A DNA stretch of 27,767 nt from a virus, in IMG/VR virus record IMGVR_UViG_3300032086_002391, positions 1 to 27,767 of that record. The stretch is one strand, 5' to 3'. The translations under genes were made by a program, and so were the position numbers. Below, in pieces: positions 7,401 to 22,830 of the stretch (its first letter is position 1; each line of letters begins with the position of its first letter). Under the pieces are notes generated by a model. The model did no database searches. It was not told where the DNA came from and saw only the letters and a list, made by a program, of their open reading frames with translations.

Positions 7401-8484
7401 TAATAGTACGTTTAGGGCGGCTAATACGGTGACCGTCGTTAGAGTCACTACCGTTTACATCTACATAAACAACTTTAGGTTGTTCAGTAAAGGTACCACC
7501 AGAAGCAATCGGTTGCCAAGCAGTACCATCCCAAACAGACAATGTTTTGTCGTCTGCAATATCAACCCATACCGCACCTTTACCTACACCAGTACCAGAT
7601 GGTGTACTGTTTTGCACATAATTTTCAAAACGACGGATAGCAGCAGAAGCAGTAAAAACTTTAGTATCACCACCAGTAAGGTCATAATCTGCTTCTTGAT
7701 CGGCTAATTGAACCTTATCAACACTTTTAATCCTGTCAAAATCAACAGAATTAGCACTAATACCAATGGTTACTTGACCGTTAGTAGTAGTTTTATTGAG
7801 ACCAGTATTATCAACTAAAATGTCATTTTCAATAACATGGTCCGTAAAGTTTTTAAGAGCACCAGTAGTAGGTACAGCATTGTCATTGTCAGGCATGACA
7901 TCAGATGCTGCAGCCAGTTCAGCCTTAGTAAAGGTGTCGTTTACCTCATCTTGGAAACGAGCATCCAATGCAGCAGTGGTTGCAATTTTAGTATCATTAC
8001 TTACCCACGTATCACCAGCATACAAAGTATTATCATACCTATCCCAATAATAATCTTTTAGGTATTGATCAACATCATCAGGAATGCCAGGACAATTAGA
8101 CTCTTGAATAGCATACTTTAGCTGTTCAAAGTTATTGTTTAGGTCATCAGAACGGATAGCTGATCCAGGGTTGAACAATGCACGAATGTCATCTATCTGA
8201 GTGATACGACGAATTTTAACATTATCAACAGTAGGTTCACCTGGATCAACAGGTGTAGCAGGAGCGGGTGGAGCCGTGCTTGTAAACTCTACAATAGTAG
8301 GGTTAGCATCAGTAATACGCCAAGGGTATGTCCCATCAGTCGTGAGCTTTTCGTCGTATTCTTTAGTTGTTGCGTTCCAAAAATAAACGTGAATCTCAGA
8401 TTTAAAAATATACGGGAAGTCAAAAGAAAATTGTGTCTTTGTCCCGTTTCCAGCTTGAATTGTTTGTACGTCAGTACACGACAT
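4456..8484 (-). CDS. Tail fibre with beta-helix-like middle and S74 self-cleaving chaperone
   Basis: A 1342-aa receptor-binding fibre. Residues 1 to about 130 match the T7 gp17-type tail-attachment domain (QTIQAGNGTKTQFSFDFPY, then RALFNPGSAIRSDDLNNNFE). From about 336 comes a pectin-lyase-like beta-helix region (VYVDVNGSDSNDG, RPKRTIKAAINQI, VIVAAGVYQE), suited to binding or trimming surface sugars. Glycine-rich VGIGT repeats occur near residues 825, 911 and 1115. The last 103 residues are an S74 intramolecular chaperone. SDYRLKEN carries the catalytic Ser1240 and Lys1245, and the tail ends in a trimerising helix. The chaperone should fold the trimer and then cleave itself off before Ser1240. 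It is more than twice as long as T7 gp17. Confidence 0.95.
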   Translation of the reverse strand: MSCTDVQTIQAGNGTKTQFSFDFPYIFKSEIHVYFWNATTKEYDEKLTTDGTYPWRITDANPTIVEFTSTAPPAPATPVDPGEPTVDNVKIRRITQIDDIRALFNPGSAIRSDDLNNNFEQLKYAIQESNCPGIPDDVDQYLKDYYWDRYDNTLYAGDTWVSNDTKIATTAALDARFQDEVNDTFTKAELAAASDVMPDNDNAVPTTGALKNFTDHVIENDILVDNTGLNKTTTNGQVTIGISANSVDFDRIKSVDKVQLADQEADYDLTGGDTKVFTASAAIRRFENYVQNSTPSGTGVGKGAVWVDIADDKTLSVWDGTAWQPIASGGTFTEQPKVVYVDVNGSDSNDGHRISRPKRTIKAAINQINADSTYGDGSTVIVAAGVYQEAAPIQIQKKNVSIIGQALRSCVVHPTVASQGDQSGGNHALFELNSGSFIQNLTLTGMKANNSGTNTLDSTLPSNQGWNFAFYSGATIYKSPYIQNCTNFSDSEIDNSNLNAEQPAGGLAGDTDSAPTGGGMLVDGAVLNSASPLRSMVADSYTHVGLNGPGILVVNNGYTQITSSYAFFNKYHIKCLNGGQANLAASTTDFGDQGLVADGKSTSAIFTSNVDGAASSGATSFNINEPTAGTGWFGDAERPGTNMLVEVNSVIYPILSATARTDSEGNNGWTVTISRPNPSNRSENLGLNGAISDNAAVSFYLRSMIASSGHTMEYVGSGTDYRALPENGGVPNESKQKIELNNGKIWTAVTDHNGKFTVGGNQTDDPFFEVDQQLGFVTIPEGSIAFNLLSDLTPQLGGNLDVNSKEIVSTSNGNIIIKPNGTGKVGIGTSSPAVKLDISGKARSNSTVASDAGTTLVTKDYLDNTSYWERDAATNTLSPKEGNDNVNVGDNAILLKSNSGDAHFLGNVGIGTTSPGAPLEINNASPRIRLRDSDGTNTYSEVAAATGDLYLSSRNDAANGQFIFQGTGGGTADEHMRIDTSGRLLVGRSSTSSYPNFNGTTVNPLLQVTSDADAEVGILLRFNSAGAGSDRGATFCFQRYTDGTSVSDGKNLGEITWQGEHDGSNTIAAASIRAHVDGTSGSSDMPGRLVFSTTADGASSPTERMYIVSNGNVGIGTTDPQTSLHVNSTAATGIRSHASNTQTTDTNKAFKVTNGNNTETFNVSYRGGGFFAGQVFFGTESSSDLTTGAANAKRIDSTSVVMLSSRDSTASRNHHAFYNPNGQVGTISTNGSATVYSTSSDYRLKENITPMVGAADRVKALKPCRFNFIADASKTVDGFLAHEVQTIVPEAITGEKDAVDNEGNPEYQGIDQAKLVPLLTAALQEALAKIDDLEARLTAAGL

Positions 8485-20160: not shown

Positions 20161-21282
20161 TCAGAATGCAGAAGGCTTGACGTTGGTAGCATAAAGCTCA
20201 ACGGCAGCAGCAGGATTCAGGTAGTCAGCGCCCATGGCGAGACGACCCAGGATCACGTCACCCTGATAGATCACGGAGACATCGCCGCTGGTGACTTGCA
20301 CCTGAGGAGCGATAGCTTCGACACAACCAGCAGCTTCACGCTGGAAGATCAGACCACAGGAGGTAGCGCCCACTTCCAAAGCAGTACCATAATCATTGTT
20401 GATACCACCTTGTGCAGTATCAGCATCCTCAAGGGAGTTACCAATGAAGGAGCCAGTGTTGCCAGGATCAGCAACAGCACCGCCGTAGTTCACACCATAC
20501 TTACCGAAGAACGGAATGTTCATCGACTTGTAGATCTTAATACCGGCGATTTCCACGATGCCCTCGCCGCCTTGCAGAGCGGTACCTTGGACATCACGGT
20601 TCACCAAACCATTGGAGCCAACAGCTTGGATCAGTTCGTAGTACTGACGGGGGTTCAGGACGGCAACACGGCCATCGGTAGACACACCCTTCTCGTCCAG
20701 AGCAGCAGCGGCATCATAGAATGCAGCAACCAGCTTGGCAGAGTCATAAGCATCAGCTTCAGAGCCGGTACCGGTGCCCACCTGAATCTGAGTACCACCG
20801 GGCTCAACGTAACCGGTAGCAGAGATTGGGGAGGCATGACGTGCACCACGAGTGATGGCACGGAAGATGTAACGGTCATACTTCTCAGCAAGAGCGTAAC
20901 CGATCTTACGAGAGATTTCAGACCGCAGGTCATAATGAGAAAGAGTCTCATCAAGGTCATAGACGAATGCGCTGGAGATCAGCAGATCATCGACCGTGAT
21001 GGTCTTCTCAGCCACCGGAGGTGCATTGTTGGTATCACCCAGGATGCTGTTACCAGGAGTATGGAACTCACTCTTGGTACGACCGGTGTAGATGAACTGG
21101 AGAGATTTGCCGTTCTTAAGGGTACGCTTCATCACCAGATCGCGAGCGATGGTGTTGTGCTGGAAGCCCTTGAACATCTCACCACTAAAAAGCTTGAGAT
21201 AAAGAGCGCGGGTATCGCCCGCAAGGTTAGCCTGACCCAGCTGAGTAAGCTGAGCGGGGTTCACCGAAGATTGAAAAGCCAT
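20161..21282 (-). CDS. Major capsid protein (T7 gp10-like)
   Basis: A 373-aa protein with the T7 gp10 pattern: LGQANLAGDTRALYLKLFSG at the start, TGRTKSEFHTPG, VDDLLISSAFVYDLDE with ETLSHYDLRSEIS, GRVAVLNPRQYYELI, and a C-terminal LGRLAMGADYLNPAAAVEL. It has the HK97-like coat fold and forms the icosahedral shell around the scaffold. Length is close to T7 gp10A (345 aa). It is preceded by a spacer of about 150 nt with several inverted repeats and lacks a strong Shine-Dalgarno. A terminator follows. This arrangement points to its own transcription or RNA-level control. Confidence 0.97.
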   Translation of the reverse strand: MAFQSSVNPAQLTQLGQANLAGDTRALYLKLFSGEMFKGFQHNTIARDLVMKRTLKNGKSLQFIYTGRTKSEFHTPGNSILGDTNNAPPVAEKTITVDDLLISSAFVYDLDETLSHYDLRSEISRKIGYALAEKYDRYIFRAITRGARHASPISATGYVEPGGTQIQVGTGTGSEADAYDSAKLVAAFYDAAAALDEKGVSTDGRVAVLNPRQYYELIQAVGSNGLVNRDVQGTALQGGEGIVEIAGIKIYKSMNIPFFGKYGVNYGGAVADPGNTGSFIGNSLEDADTAQGGINNDYGTALEVGATSCGLIFQREAAGCVEAIAPQVQVTSGDVSVIYQGDVILGRLAMGADYLNPAAAVELYATNVKPSAF

Positions 21283-21313
21283 TGTTTTTTATAAAGAGGT
21301 TTAAGCAAGTTCC

Positions 21314-21325
21314 TCTGGATCCAGA
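21314..21325. repeat. Perfect 12-bp palindrome in the capsid leader
   Basis: TCTGGATCCAGA is its own reverse complement. It lies about 32-43 nt upstream of the capsid start. Next to it, AGAGG (minus strand 21315-21311 side) and CCTCT near 21298 can also pair, so alternative folds of the capsid leader are possible. It could be a protein-binding site or an mRNA stem; the sequence does not decide. Confidence 0.6.
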
Positions 21326-21355
21326 AGTATTTAGTTTTTATTGTGGTCTATCCCA

Positions 21356-21367
21356 CCGTCTAGACGG
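21356..21367. repeat. Second perfect 12-bp palindrome in the capsid leader
   Basis: CCGTCTAGACGG is its own reverse complement and lies 31 bp from the palindrome at 21314. Two perfect 12-bp palindromes in one short leader are uncommon in this otherwise compact genome. An AT-rich stretch (ACAATAAAAACTAAATAC on the minus strand) sits between them and could hold a promoter, but I cannot match it to a known one. Confidence 0.6.
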
Positions 21368-21401
21368 CTAGAGGTATCGGCGTACCGGCTCTAACCAATA
21401 A

Positions 21402-21434
21402 GTGAGGAGGGGAATCGAACCCCTCCCAAGTCAC
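21402..21434 (-). other. Strong hairpin resembling a tRNA T-arm, after the 33-aa ORF
   Basis: On the minus strand GGAGGGG and CCCCTCC form a perfect 7-bp stem around the loop TTCGATT. An outer GTGA/TCAC pair is separated by four unpaired bases. The loop and stem match the T-arm of a tRNA, but no acceptor, D-arm or anticodon arm can be found around it, so it is not an intact tRNA. It begins 5 nt after the stop of the 33-aa ORF and lacks a following T-run. It may be a transcript-end stabiliser, a weak terminator, or a remnant of a tRNA 3' end. Confidence 0.65.
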
Positions 21435-21438
21435 CAGA

Positions 21439-21540
21439 TCACTTCTTGTATTCAACACCGCGATAGCGGAGCGCATCAACATGATAACGCTCAGCACGAC
21501 GACGTTGGGCTTCAAGGAAACGAATAAGATTGATAGACAT
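21439..21540 (-). CDS. 33-aa ORF between psbA and capsid
   Basis: The frame reads MSINLIRFLEAQRRRAERYH and ends VDALRYRGVEYKK. The ending LRYRGVEY resembles the short RYRG-type motif found in small cyanobacterial proteins of unknown role. A charged, Arg-rich helix precedes it. There is no clear Shine-Dalgarno. The ORF is framed by a structured element upstream and a strong hairpin downstream, so it may be a small protein with regulated expression, perhaps of host origin. A 75-codon ORF in another frame (21587-21360) overlaps it; I prefer this one for its protein-like composition. Confidence 0.5.
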   Translation of the reverse strand: MSINLIRFLEAQRRRAERYHVDALRYRGVEYKK

Positions 21541-21542
21541 AG

Positions 21543-21612
21543 TTCGTACAAGATAAACCTAGCCCCCGTTCCATGACTAGGCGACATGCGACCCGAAGGT
21601 TGAACGTACGAA
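21543..21612 (-). promoter_or_regulatory. Candidate structured RNA element upstream of the 33-aa ORF
   Basis: On the minus strand TTCGTAC (21612-21606) can pair with GTACGAA (21549-21543), closing a domain of about 70 nt. Inside it, CCTAG (21581-21577) pairs with CTAGG (21562-21558) around a loop containing TCATGGAACGGGGG. The closing stem ends 2 nt before the ORF's ATG, so folding could hide or expose the start. The stems are visible in the sequence; a regulatory role is inference. Confidence 0.45.
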
Positions 21613-21616
21613 TTAA

Positions 21617-21748
21617 CTATTTACCAAGCAGTTTTTTGTAAGCTTCGTTCTGCTTTTGACGAGTGTCAGGAGCTTTACCAGCGGGGGTTCCACCAAAGAA
21701 CCCACGAAGGAAATCACCAACATTGTCTTTCTTTTTCTTGTTAGGCAT
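21617..21748 (-). CDS. Small hypothetical protein, 43 aa, after psbA
   Basis: The frame begins MPNKKKKDNVGDFLRGFFGG and continues through TPAGKAPDTRQKQNEAYKKLLGK. It has a lysine-rich start, a short amphipathic helix with a Gly-Gly end, and a charged C-terminal helix. There is no membrane segment or cysteine. It starts 5 nt after the psbA stop, which is typical of co-translated genes here. I do not recognise a family; the size and composition resemble other tiny basic phage proteins in this window. Confidence 0.65.
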   Translation of the reverse strand: MPNKKKKDNVGDFLRGFFGGTPAGKAPDTRQKQNEAYKKLLGK

Positions 21749-21753
21749 AATTT

Positions 21754-22830
21754 TTAACCAATAGAAGGAGCTTGCAGAGCCACAGGAGTGGACTCAGCGG
21801 ACGCGAGGTCCAGGGGGAAGTTGTGCGCGTTGCGCTCATGCATCACCTCAAAGCCAAGGTTAGCACGGTTAAGAATATCAGCCCAAGTGTTAATGGTATG
21901 ACCTTGACGATCAACAATAGATTGATTAAAGTTGAATCCATTCAAGTTAAATGCCATAGTGCTAACACCAAGAGAAGTGAACCAAATCCCCAGGACGGGC
22001 CAAGCAGCAAGGAAGAAATGAAGAGAACGACTATTATTAAACGACGCATATTGGAAGATAAGCCTTCCAAAGTAACCATGCGCTGCAACAATGTTATAAG
22101 TCTCTTCCTCTTGGCCGAACTTGTAGCCATAGTTTTGAGACTCATTCTCAGTTGTCTCACGTACGAGAGAACTGGTGACAAGACTACCATGCATCGCTGA
22201 GAACAAAGCCCCACCAAATACACCGGCAACACCAAGCATATGGAAAGGATGCATAAGGATATTATGTTCAGCTTGGAAGACAAGCATGAAGTTGAATGTA
22301 CCGGAAATGCCAAGAGGCATCCCATCAGAAAAAGAACCTTGGCCGAATGGGTAGACCAAAAAGACTGCAGTCGCTGCAGCAACAGGAGCAGAATACGCAA
22401 CAAAGATCCAGGGCCTCATCCCAAGTCGGTACGAAAGTTCCCATTCTCGTCCCAAGTAAGAGAAGATACCGATAAGGAAGTGGAACACGACGAGCTGATA
22501 GGGTCCGCCGTTGTAGAGCCATTCTTCAAGGGTATTGGCTTCCCAGATCGGGTACAAATGTAGTCCAATTGCGTTACTGCTAGGCACCACGGCACCAGAG
22601 ATGATGTTGTTTCCGTAGAGCAGTGAGCCTGCGACTGGTTCACGAATGCCATCGATGTCAACAGGAGGAGCGGCAATGAATGCCAGAATAAAACAGGTAG
22701 TTGCAGCAAGCAGACAAGGAATCATCAGCGTACCGAACCACCCAACATAAAGACGATTGTTAGTCGAAGTCACCCAGGAACAAAACTCTTCCCAGGTTGA
22801 CTCCTGACGGGTAAGTACAGAAGTTGCCAT
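21754..22830 (-). CDS. psbA: Photosystem II D1 protein
   Basis: A complete 358-aa D1 with no intron. All key residues are present (canonical numbering, one above local): Tyr161 (FLVYPFGQG), Asp170 (SFSDG), Glu189 and His190 (FQAEHN), the QB region, and the manganese ligands His332, Glu333, His337, Asp342 and Ala344 in [15 protein letters not shown]. The tail after Ala344 ([15 protein letters not shown]) is the usual CtpA-cleaved extension. Canonical residue 130 is Glu (LGREWELS), the high-light D1:2-type state, where many constitutive forms have Gln. In cyanophages this gene replaces photodamaged host D1, keeping electron flow and energy supply going during infection. It lies downstream of hli in the same strand run. 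Confidence 0.99.

Follow-up and report, generated by a model that had tools for sequence, protein, structure and literature searches.

A predicted glutamine-II riboswitch and a conserved capsid-leader RNA lie side by side between psbA and the capsid gene of a T7-like cyanophage

The T7-like cyanophages and pelagiphages belong to the most abundant viruses of the sea. They lack recognisable T7-type late promoters, and by what means they increase capsid output is an open question. T7-type promoters occur as repeats in the genome. mascRNA and menRNA are tRNA-like elements that RNase P and RNase Z release from longer transcripts. RNase P cleaves acceptor/T-arm hairpins, and also phage M3 RNA and some mRNAs (PMC11143913). 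Type 2 glutamine riboswitches are, among cyanobacteria, confined to marine picocyanobacteria; they are associated with DUF4278, and glutamine binding turns expression on, both the binding of L-glutamine and the change in expression having been demonstrated for host members (PMC6316151). Phage-borne glutamine riboswitches are already known from T4-like cyanophages, pelagimyophages and the methylophage Melnitz (PMC9602691, PMC9964418, PMC9004378). In the open-access literature, to which the search was confined, we found neither a description of a glutamine riboswitch in a T7-like cyanophage nor any report of the capsid leader presented here.

The window analysed is a virus record of 27,767 bases. 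Its minus strand carries, in this order, psbA, a 43-aa ORF, the riboswitch, a 33-aa ORF, a tRNA-like fold, the leader, a second palindrome and the capsid gene. psbA (photosystem II D1; 21754-22830, minus strand) was recognised from its ORF and translation and is annotated at the same place in relatives. The major capsid protein gene (20161-21282, minus strand) encodes a protein 95% identical to that of Synechococcus phage S-RIP1. The 471 bp between them (21753 to 21283, minus strand) hold two adjacent RNA modules. An earlier note had singled out this spacer for its two small ORFs, a 7-bp stem just before the ATG of the second, a T-arm-like hairpin after its stop and two perfect 12-bp palindromes, all of which are present at the positions given below. 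It had suggested a host-derived regulatory cassette or an RNA setting capsid expression. The cassette takes the form of a host-type glutamine-II riboswitch with a YRG/DUF4278-like peptide, a pairing known from marine picocyanobacteria. The RNA corresponds to a conserved structured leader whose structure and position are well supported and which may control capsid expression. The hairpin after the stop and the first palindrome belong to this second module, the capsid-leader region, apart from the cassette. The 43-aa ORF (21617-21748, minus strand), beginning MPNKKKKDNVGDF, is possibly coding and poorly conserved: two partial homologues were found among the fetched loci (L077 and L150; 56% over 27 aa), Pfam gave no match, and by sequence comparison it is almost an orphan.

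We consider it fairly probable that the whole stretch is explained by a riboswitch controlling a peptide, followed by a processed capsid leader; it would be transcribed with the late genes and carry two successive RNA control modules. The contrary reading, an ordinary spacer in which ORFs and repeats arose by chance, is of practically negligible probability. It draws on how common small ORFs and short repeats are: the window has 250 ORFs of at least 30 aa, those of 30-45 aa being very common, so that a small ORF alone proves little, and folding is just modestly better than in shuffled sequences (z of -0.9 for the closed domain and -1.1 for the T-arm). It is refuted by the Rfam match, the conservation of the peptide and of the spacer features in isolate phages, the covariation and the fixed position across hundreds of contigs.

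The first module begins with an aptamer (21557-21609, minus strand) that matches the glutamine-II (downstream-peptide, type 2) model RF01704 over its full length, 1-60, at 48.6 bits against an Rfam cut-off of 33 (E = 4e-9). Both conserved pseudoknot strands, CGUUCA and CAUGGAACGGG, are found in the window's alignment and in relatives, and the 33-aa ORF starts 16 nt 3' of the aptamer, the short-peptide-leader position seen in RF01704. By its sequence, the element is a further member of the known glutamine-II class, and by analogy with host members it would respond to glutamine in this phage too. Of 17 related isolate or fosmid genomes, 15 carry one copy of RF01704 above the cut-off, while S-SBP1 gave a partial match and 7B11-B no match; among 20 IMG/VR relatives, 13 have the family. 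The neighbouring photosynthesis gene, which the earlier note had mentioned, is no essential partner: S-TIP28 and S28-C3 keep the riboswitch although the regions read have no annotated psbA, and in 7B11-B the riboswitch has been lost and the leader kept. In this last phage (L085), an endolysin gene lies between psbA and the capsid gene. A loose pattern search also returned a candidate second glutamine-II-like core about 1 kb further upstream in five relatives (L015, L016, L022, L073 and L092).

The 7-bp stem is formed by TTCGTAC (21606-21612, minus strand), which adjoins the pseudoknot strand CGTTC, and GTACGAA (21543-21549, minus strand), which ends 2 nt before the ATG and is likely the start-site-sequestering arm of the expression platform. 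As RNA, the stem (UUCGUAC/GUACGAA) shares one base with the pseudoknot strand CGUUC. It was considered as a covarying helix and set aside as neutral evidence, because it is unchanged in about 20 relatives, with no covariation; other clades have a GGAG Shine-Dalgarno sequence there. We infer from this layout that the stem blocks the start site when glutamine is absent. Since the pseudoknot strand adjoins, and by one base overlaps, the stem closing over the ORF start, glutamine would favour the pseudoknot, the start site would open and the YRG peptide would be made at high glutamine.

The 33-aa peptide (21439-21540, minus strand) ends in LRYRGVEYKK, is YRG/DUF4278-like and is conserved in cyanopodoviruses, the YRG core being present in 121 of the 139 distinct peptides encoded 3' of the switch. 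These phage peptides have 13-42 aa and one copy of the core; often they are just 13-20 aa long, and in other lineages they are extended at the N terminus. Codons are conserved, which the note had named as support for a protein: within the window's peptide class, pN was 0.069 versus a synonymous pS of 0.226 (ratio, 0.30). The ORF is coding and under purifying selection. The YRGxxY core of DUF4278 occurs in the window's peptide as YRGVEY. We call the peptide DUF4278-like and not a member of the family because the Pfam score was not reached: the window's peptide had no match to DUF4278 (PF14105), and those of relatives scored 14.4-21.6 bits, below the Pfam gathering threshold of 25.3. Peptides encoded after the same switch in the three Synechococcus genomes with matches end in LTYRGVSYAK, LVYRGVGYTR, LTYRGLQYVRCS or LKYRGVSYEAMRANWL. 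By analogy with what is suspected for DUF4278 small proteins, the phage peptide would act on host nitrogen metabolism. Nearly all cyanopodoviruses tested have the switch with its peptide, which suggests that the phages sense the nitrogen state of the host during infection. It is very unlikely that the riboswitch mainly controls whether transcription continues into the capsid gene, which would put virion production under the control of glutamine and make the peptide a by-product. In most of these phages the riboswitch does precede the capsid gene, but the peptide is under purifying selection, Tangaroavirus has several genes between switch and capsid, 7B11-B keeps the leader without the switch, and no intrinsic terminator (a GC-rich hairpin followed by a T run) was found in 21250-21800.

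The second module centres on the capsid-leader RNA (21340-21400, minus strand), which consists of hairpin 1 (21366-21396), with a UACG tetraloop (21381-21384) and an internal loop of C opposite AUAC, a palindromic linker, and hairpin P4 (21343-21356), with the loop GAUAGA. Positions 21335-21400 have counterparts in many cyanopodoviruses, and the aligned capsid upstream regions combine fixed with covarying parts. Scanning IMG/VR with the two halves of the leader gave 230 contigs, eight of which end within 135 nt of the element; in all 222 readable downstream, the capsid gene follows the leader, at a distance of 57-126 nt with one exception at 443. The window has a single copy of the leader's 3' half, as does every one of the 13 genomes in which this half was found with up to three mismatches. 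A covariance model, R1, built from 22 verified sequences, scored 82.8 bits on the window and found exactly one copy in 99 of 100 loci; its alignment has pairing in 91% of cells and 242 two-sided changes, compared with 89 after shuffling. Compensatory changes of the kind the note had suggested looking for were evident in hairpin 1, where four pairs reached E < 0.004, with 8, 11, 5 and 13 pair-to-pair double changes, as judged with our own R-scape-like implementation on a structure-fitted alignment, with a null in which parsimony substitutions are re-dropped on a tree of that same alignment. The sole other significant column pair was the fourth pair of the same helix, and RNAalifold on an alignment made from sequence only returned the same structure. 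Hairpin P4 had five double-change events, too little variation for significance alone. The leader matched none of 4227 Rfam models at permissive thresholds, and a search of three host Synechococcus genomes, run without a positive control, turned up nothing resembling it. The leader and the tRNA-like fold next to it exist as conserved elements, hold their position and covary; a function of the leader in capsid expression is the role that our model would give it.

The linker contains the first of the two perfect 12-bp palindromes, CCGTCTAGACGG (21356-21367, minus strand), which relatives retain with the centres CTAG, CATG, TCGA and CCGG. The second, TCTGGATCCAGA (21314-21325, minus strand), has many counterparts: 195 of the 250 distinct spacers contain a perfect palindrome of 10 bp or more, where shuffling leads one to expect 31, and these palindromes have 59 different sequences. 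In relatives, these second palindromes change in sequence while the centre stays self-complementary, and they mostly lie 26-40 nt before the capsid start. Such varied sequences disfavour the binding site of one protein, and the perfect centres disfavour a plain RNA hairpin; a fixed palindrome with a perfect centre, which a simple RNA hairpin does not explain, also counts against our model as a whole. The palindromes may reflect RNA dimers, a role at the DNA level or template-switch correction. A general repeated phage promoter is ruled out for the palindrome by its single copy, in the window as in the 13 genomes searched with three mismatches. The perfect palindromes, centres included, and the little variation of the leader half GTCTAGACGGTGGGATAGACCACA would suit another reading, in which this near-invariant half is a DNA element, either a late promoter of the phage RNA polymerase or the site of a dimeric protein, and hairpin 1 alone is RNA. 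This half resembles, by eye, the T7 phi10 start TATAGGGAGACCACAACGG, found at the same place before the T7 capsid gene; as a promoter, it would place the transcript start at GGTGGGATAGACC. We regard this reading as quite unlikely, because the element has one copy per genome, unlike the repeated T7-type promoters, because the pairing of P4 survives two-sided changes in five relatives (L054, L068, L073, L278 and L321), and because three other phage groups have hairpin 1 without the GTCTAGACGGTGGGATAGACCACA half.

Directly 5' of the leader lies the tRNA-like fold (21400-21444, minus strand), in which an acceptor stem (21439-21444 with 21400-21405) is joined to a T-arm (21406-21426) with the T-loop UUCGAUU. 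A complete tRNA was considered for the window and rejected, as ARAGORN calls no cloverleaf there. The 225 distinct cyanopodovirus sequences 5' of the leader have mainly either such a T-loop hairpin or a hairpin with a fixed loop. Upstream acceptor strands with at least five Watson-Crick pairs occur in 65 of the 91 distinct T-loop cases (permutation mean, 18.7; maximum, 28), and in nine relatives a complete tRNA, seven times Gly(UCC), once Trp and once Met, adjoins the leader so that the end of the tRNA is the start of the leader. The alternative hairpin, present in about half of the relatives, combines a covarying stem with a 15-nt loop, CACCUCAGAGUCGGA, that hardly varies. The same two alternatives, T-loop or CACCUCAGAGUCGGA hairpin, precede the leader in the Syn5-like group. 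Loci in which the CACCUCAGAGUCGGA hairpin replaces the tRNA-like element include L037, L039, L087, L091, L440 and L452, with the variants CAGUG and CAAUG; no Rfam match was obtained for this hairpin, which occurs in two separate phage groups. The divergent cyanopodovirus contig L278 has a complete tRNA-Met (8162-8237, minus strand) just 5' of the capsid leader, and an abiF RNA (8242-8278, minus strand; Rfam, 52.4 bits against a cut-off of 37) likewise just 5' of the leader.

The position and fold of the tRNA-like element point to a predicted RNase P/Z processing site that would leave the leader at the 5' end of the capsid mRNA. In our model, host RNase P and/or RNase Z would cut at this fold, so that psbA and the peptide would be on one message and the capsid on another; the capsid mRNA would begin with the leader RNA, and the leader would stabilise this mRNA or govern its translation. 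Against the model as a whole stand the CACCUCAGAGUCGGA hairpin, which replaces the fold in about half of the relatives and has no known link to RNase P, and the fold of the window itself, which is uncalled by ARAGORN and far below any Rfam cut-off: the mascRNA model RF01684 gave 15.7 bits for the window and 23.4 for Syn5, against a cut-off of 42.5. Phages often acquire tRNAs, and the differing tRNA identities (Gly, Trp, Met), as well as the many lineages that retain a T-arm only, would fit a fossil, left by captured tRNA genes or a former integration site, that no longer serves in processing. We judge this unlikely: decay would not maintain the acceptor complementarity that shortened forms keep (65 of 91 versus 18.7 permuted), nor would it keep the fold adjoining the leader in two deeply separate groups.

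Syn5, P-SCSP1b and the SAR11 phage HTVC019P have hairpin 1 in their capsid leaders as well. A descriptor of this hairpin was made from its closing pairs, a single C opposite AYAM, and a stem of 3-5 pairs capped by a UNCG-type loop. Of 285 loci from four marine T7-like groups, SAR11 phages included, 275 have a match to the descriptor no more than 300 nt 5' of the capsid gene (88/90, 36/43, 73/74 and 78/78). Elsewhere it matched 13 times in 1.19 Mb of the same strand and 10 times on the opposite strand, and shuffled upstream regions of the three new groups gave 0.1, 0.2 and 0.0 expected matches. Loci inside one group are homologues and not independent draws, so that stems which change and yet stay paired are stronger evidence than these counts. 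T7 has no such hairpin, and R1 finds nothing there. We tentatively propose, as a possible though doubtful reading, that the leader hairpin (C opposite AYAM, UNCG-type loop) and the tRNA-like or CACCUCAGAGUCGGA hairpin before it form an undescribed RNA system of marine cyanobacterial and SAR11 T7-like phages, in which tRNA-processing enzymes of the host cleave the late transcript, so that the capsid mRNA acquires a 5' end of its own that is protected or regulated; the system would stand in for the T7 phi10 promoter. A directly testable answer to the question of capsid output is offered by a structured RNA that four separate groups keep in front of the capsid gene, beside a tRNA or a tRNA mimic.

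Among described systems, the switch of the window resembles RF01704 members in its above-cut-off sequence and structure, its site before a small YRG peptide ORF and its marine cyanobacterial setting. It differs in lying in a T7-like phage genome, between psbA and capsid, in its shorter 5' hairpin and, in the window's clade, in a 7-bp stem instead of a Shine-Dalgarno context. The peptide shares the YRGxxY core and similar host peptide ends with picocyanobacterial DUF4278 proteins, which are related to the N terminus of IF17, whereas phage peptides have a single core in 13-42 aa and the best one tested scored 21.6 bits against 25.3. T4-like cyanophages, pelagimyophages and Melnitz also bear glutamine riboswitches; these, however, are large myoviruses, and the Melnitz switch is tied to a tmRNA gene, not to a YRG peptide beside the capsid gene. 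With mascRNA and menRNA (RF01684), the tRNA-like fold has in common an acceptor and T-arm, a reduced middle and a place inside a longer transcript, but it belongs to a phage mRNA, scores far under 42.5 and is a putative cleavage site. The leader, finally, lies ahead of the major capsid gene, where T7 has its phi10 promoter and the leader of gene 10; the T7 promoter is sequence-specific and repeated, whereas the marine phages have a single-copy element whose stems vary with pairing kept.
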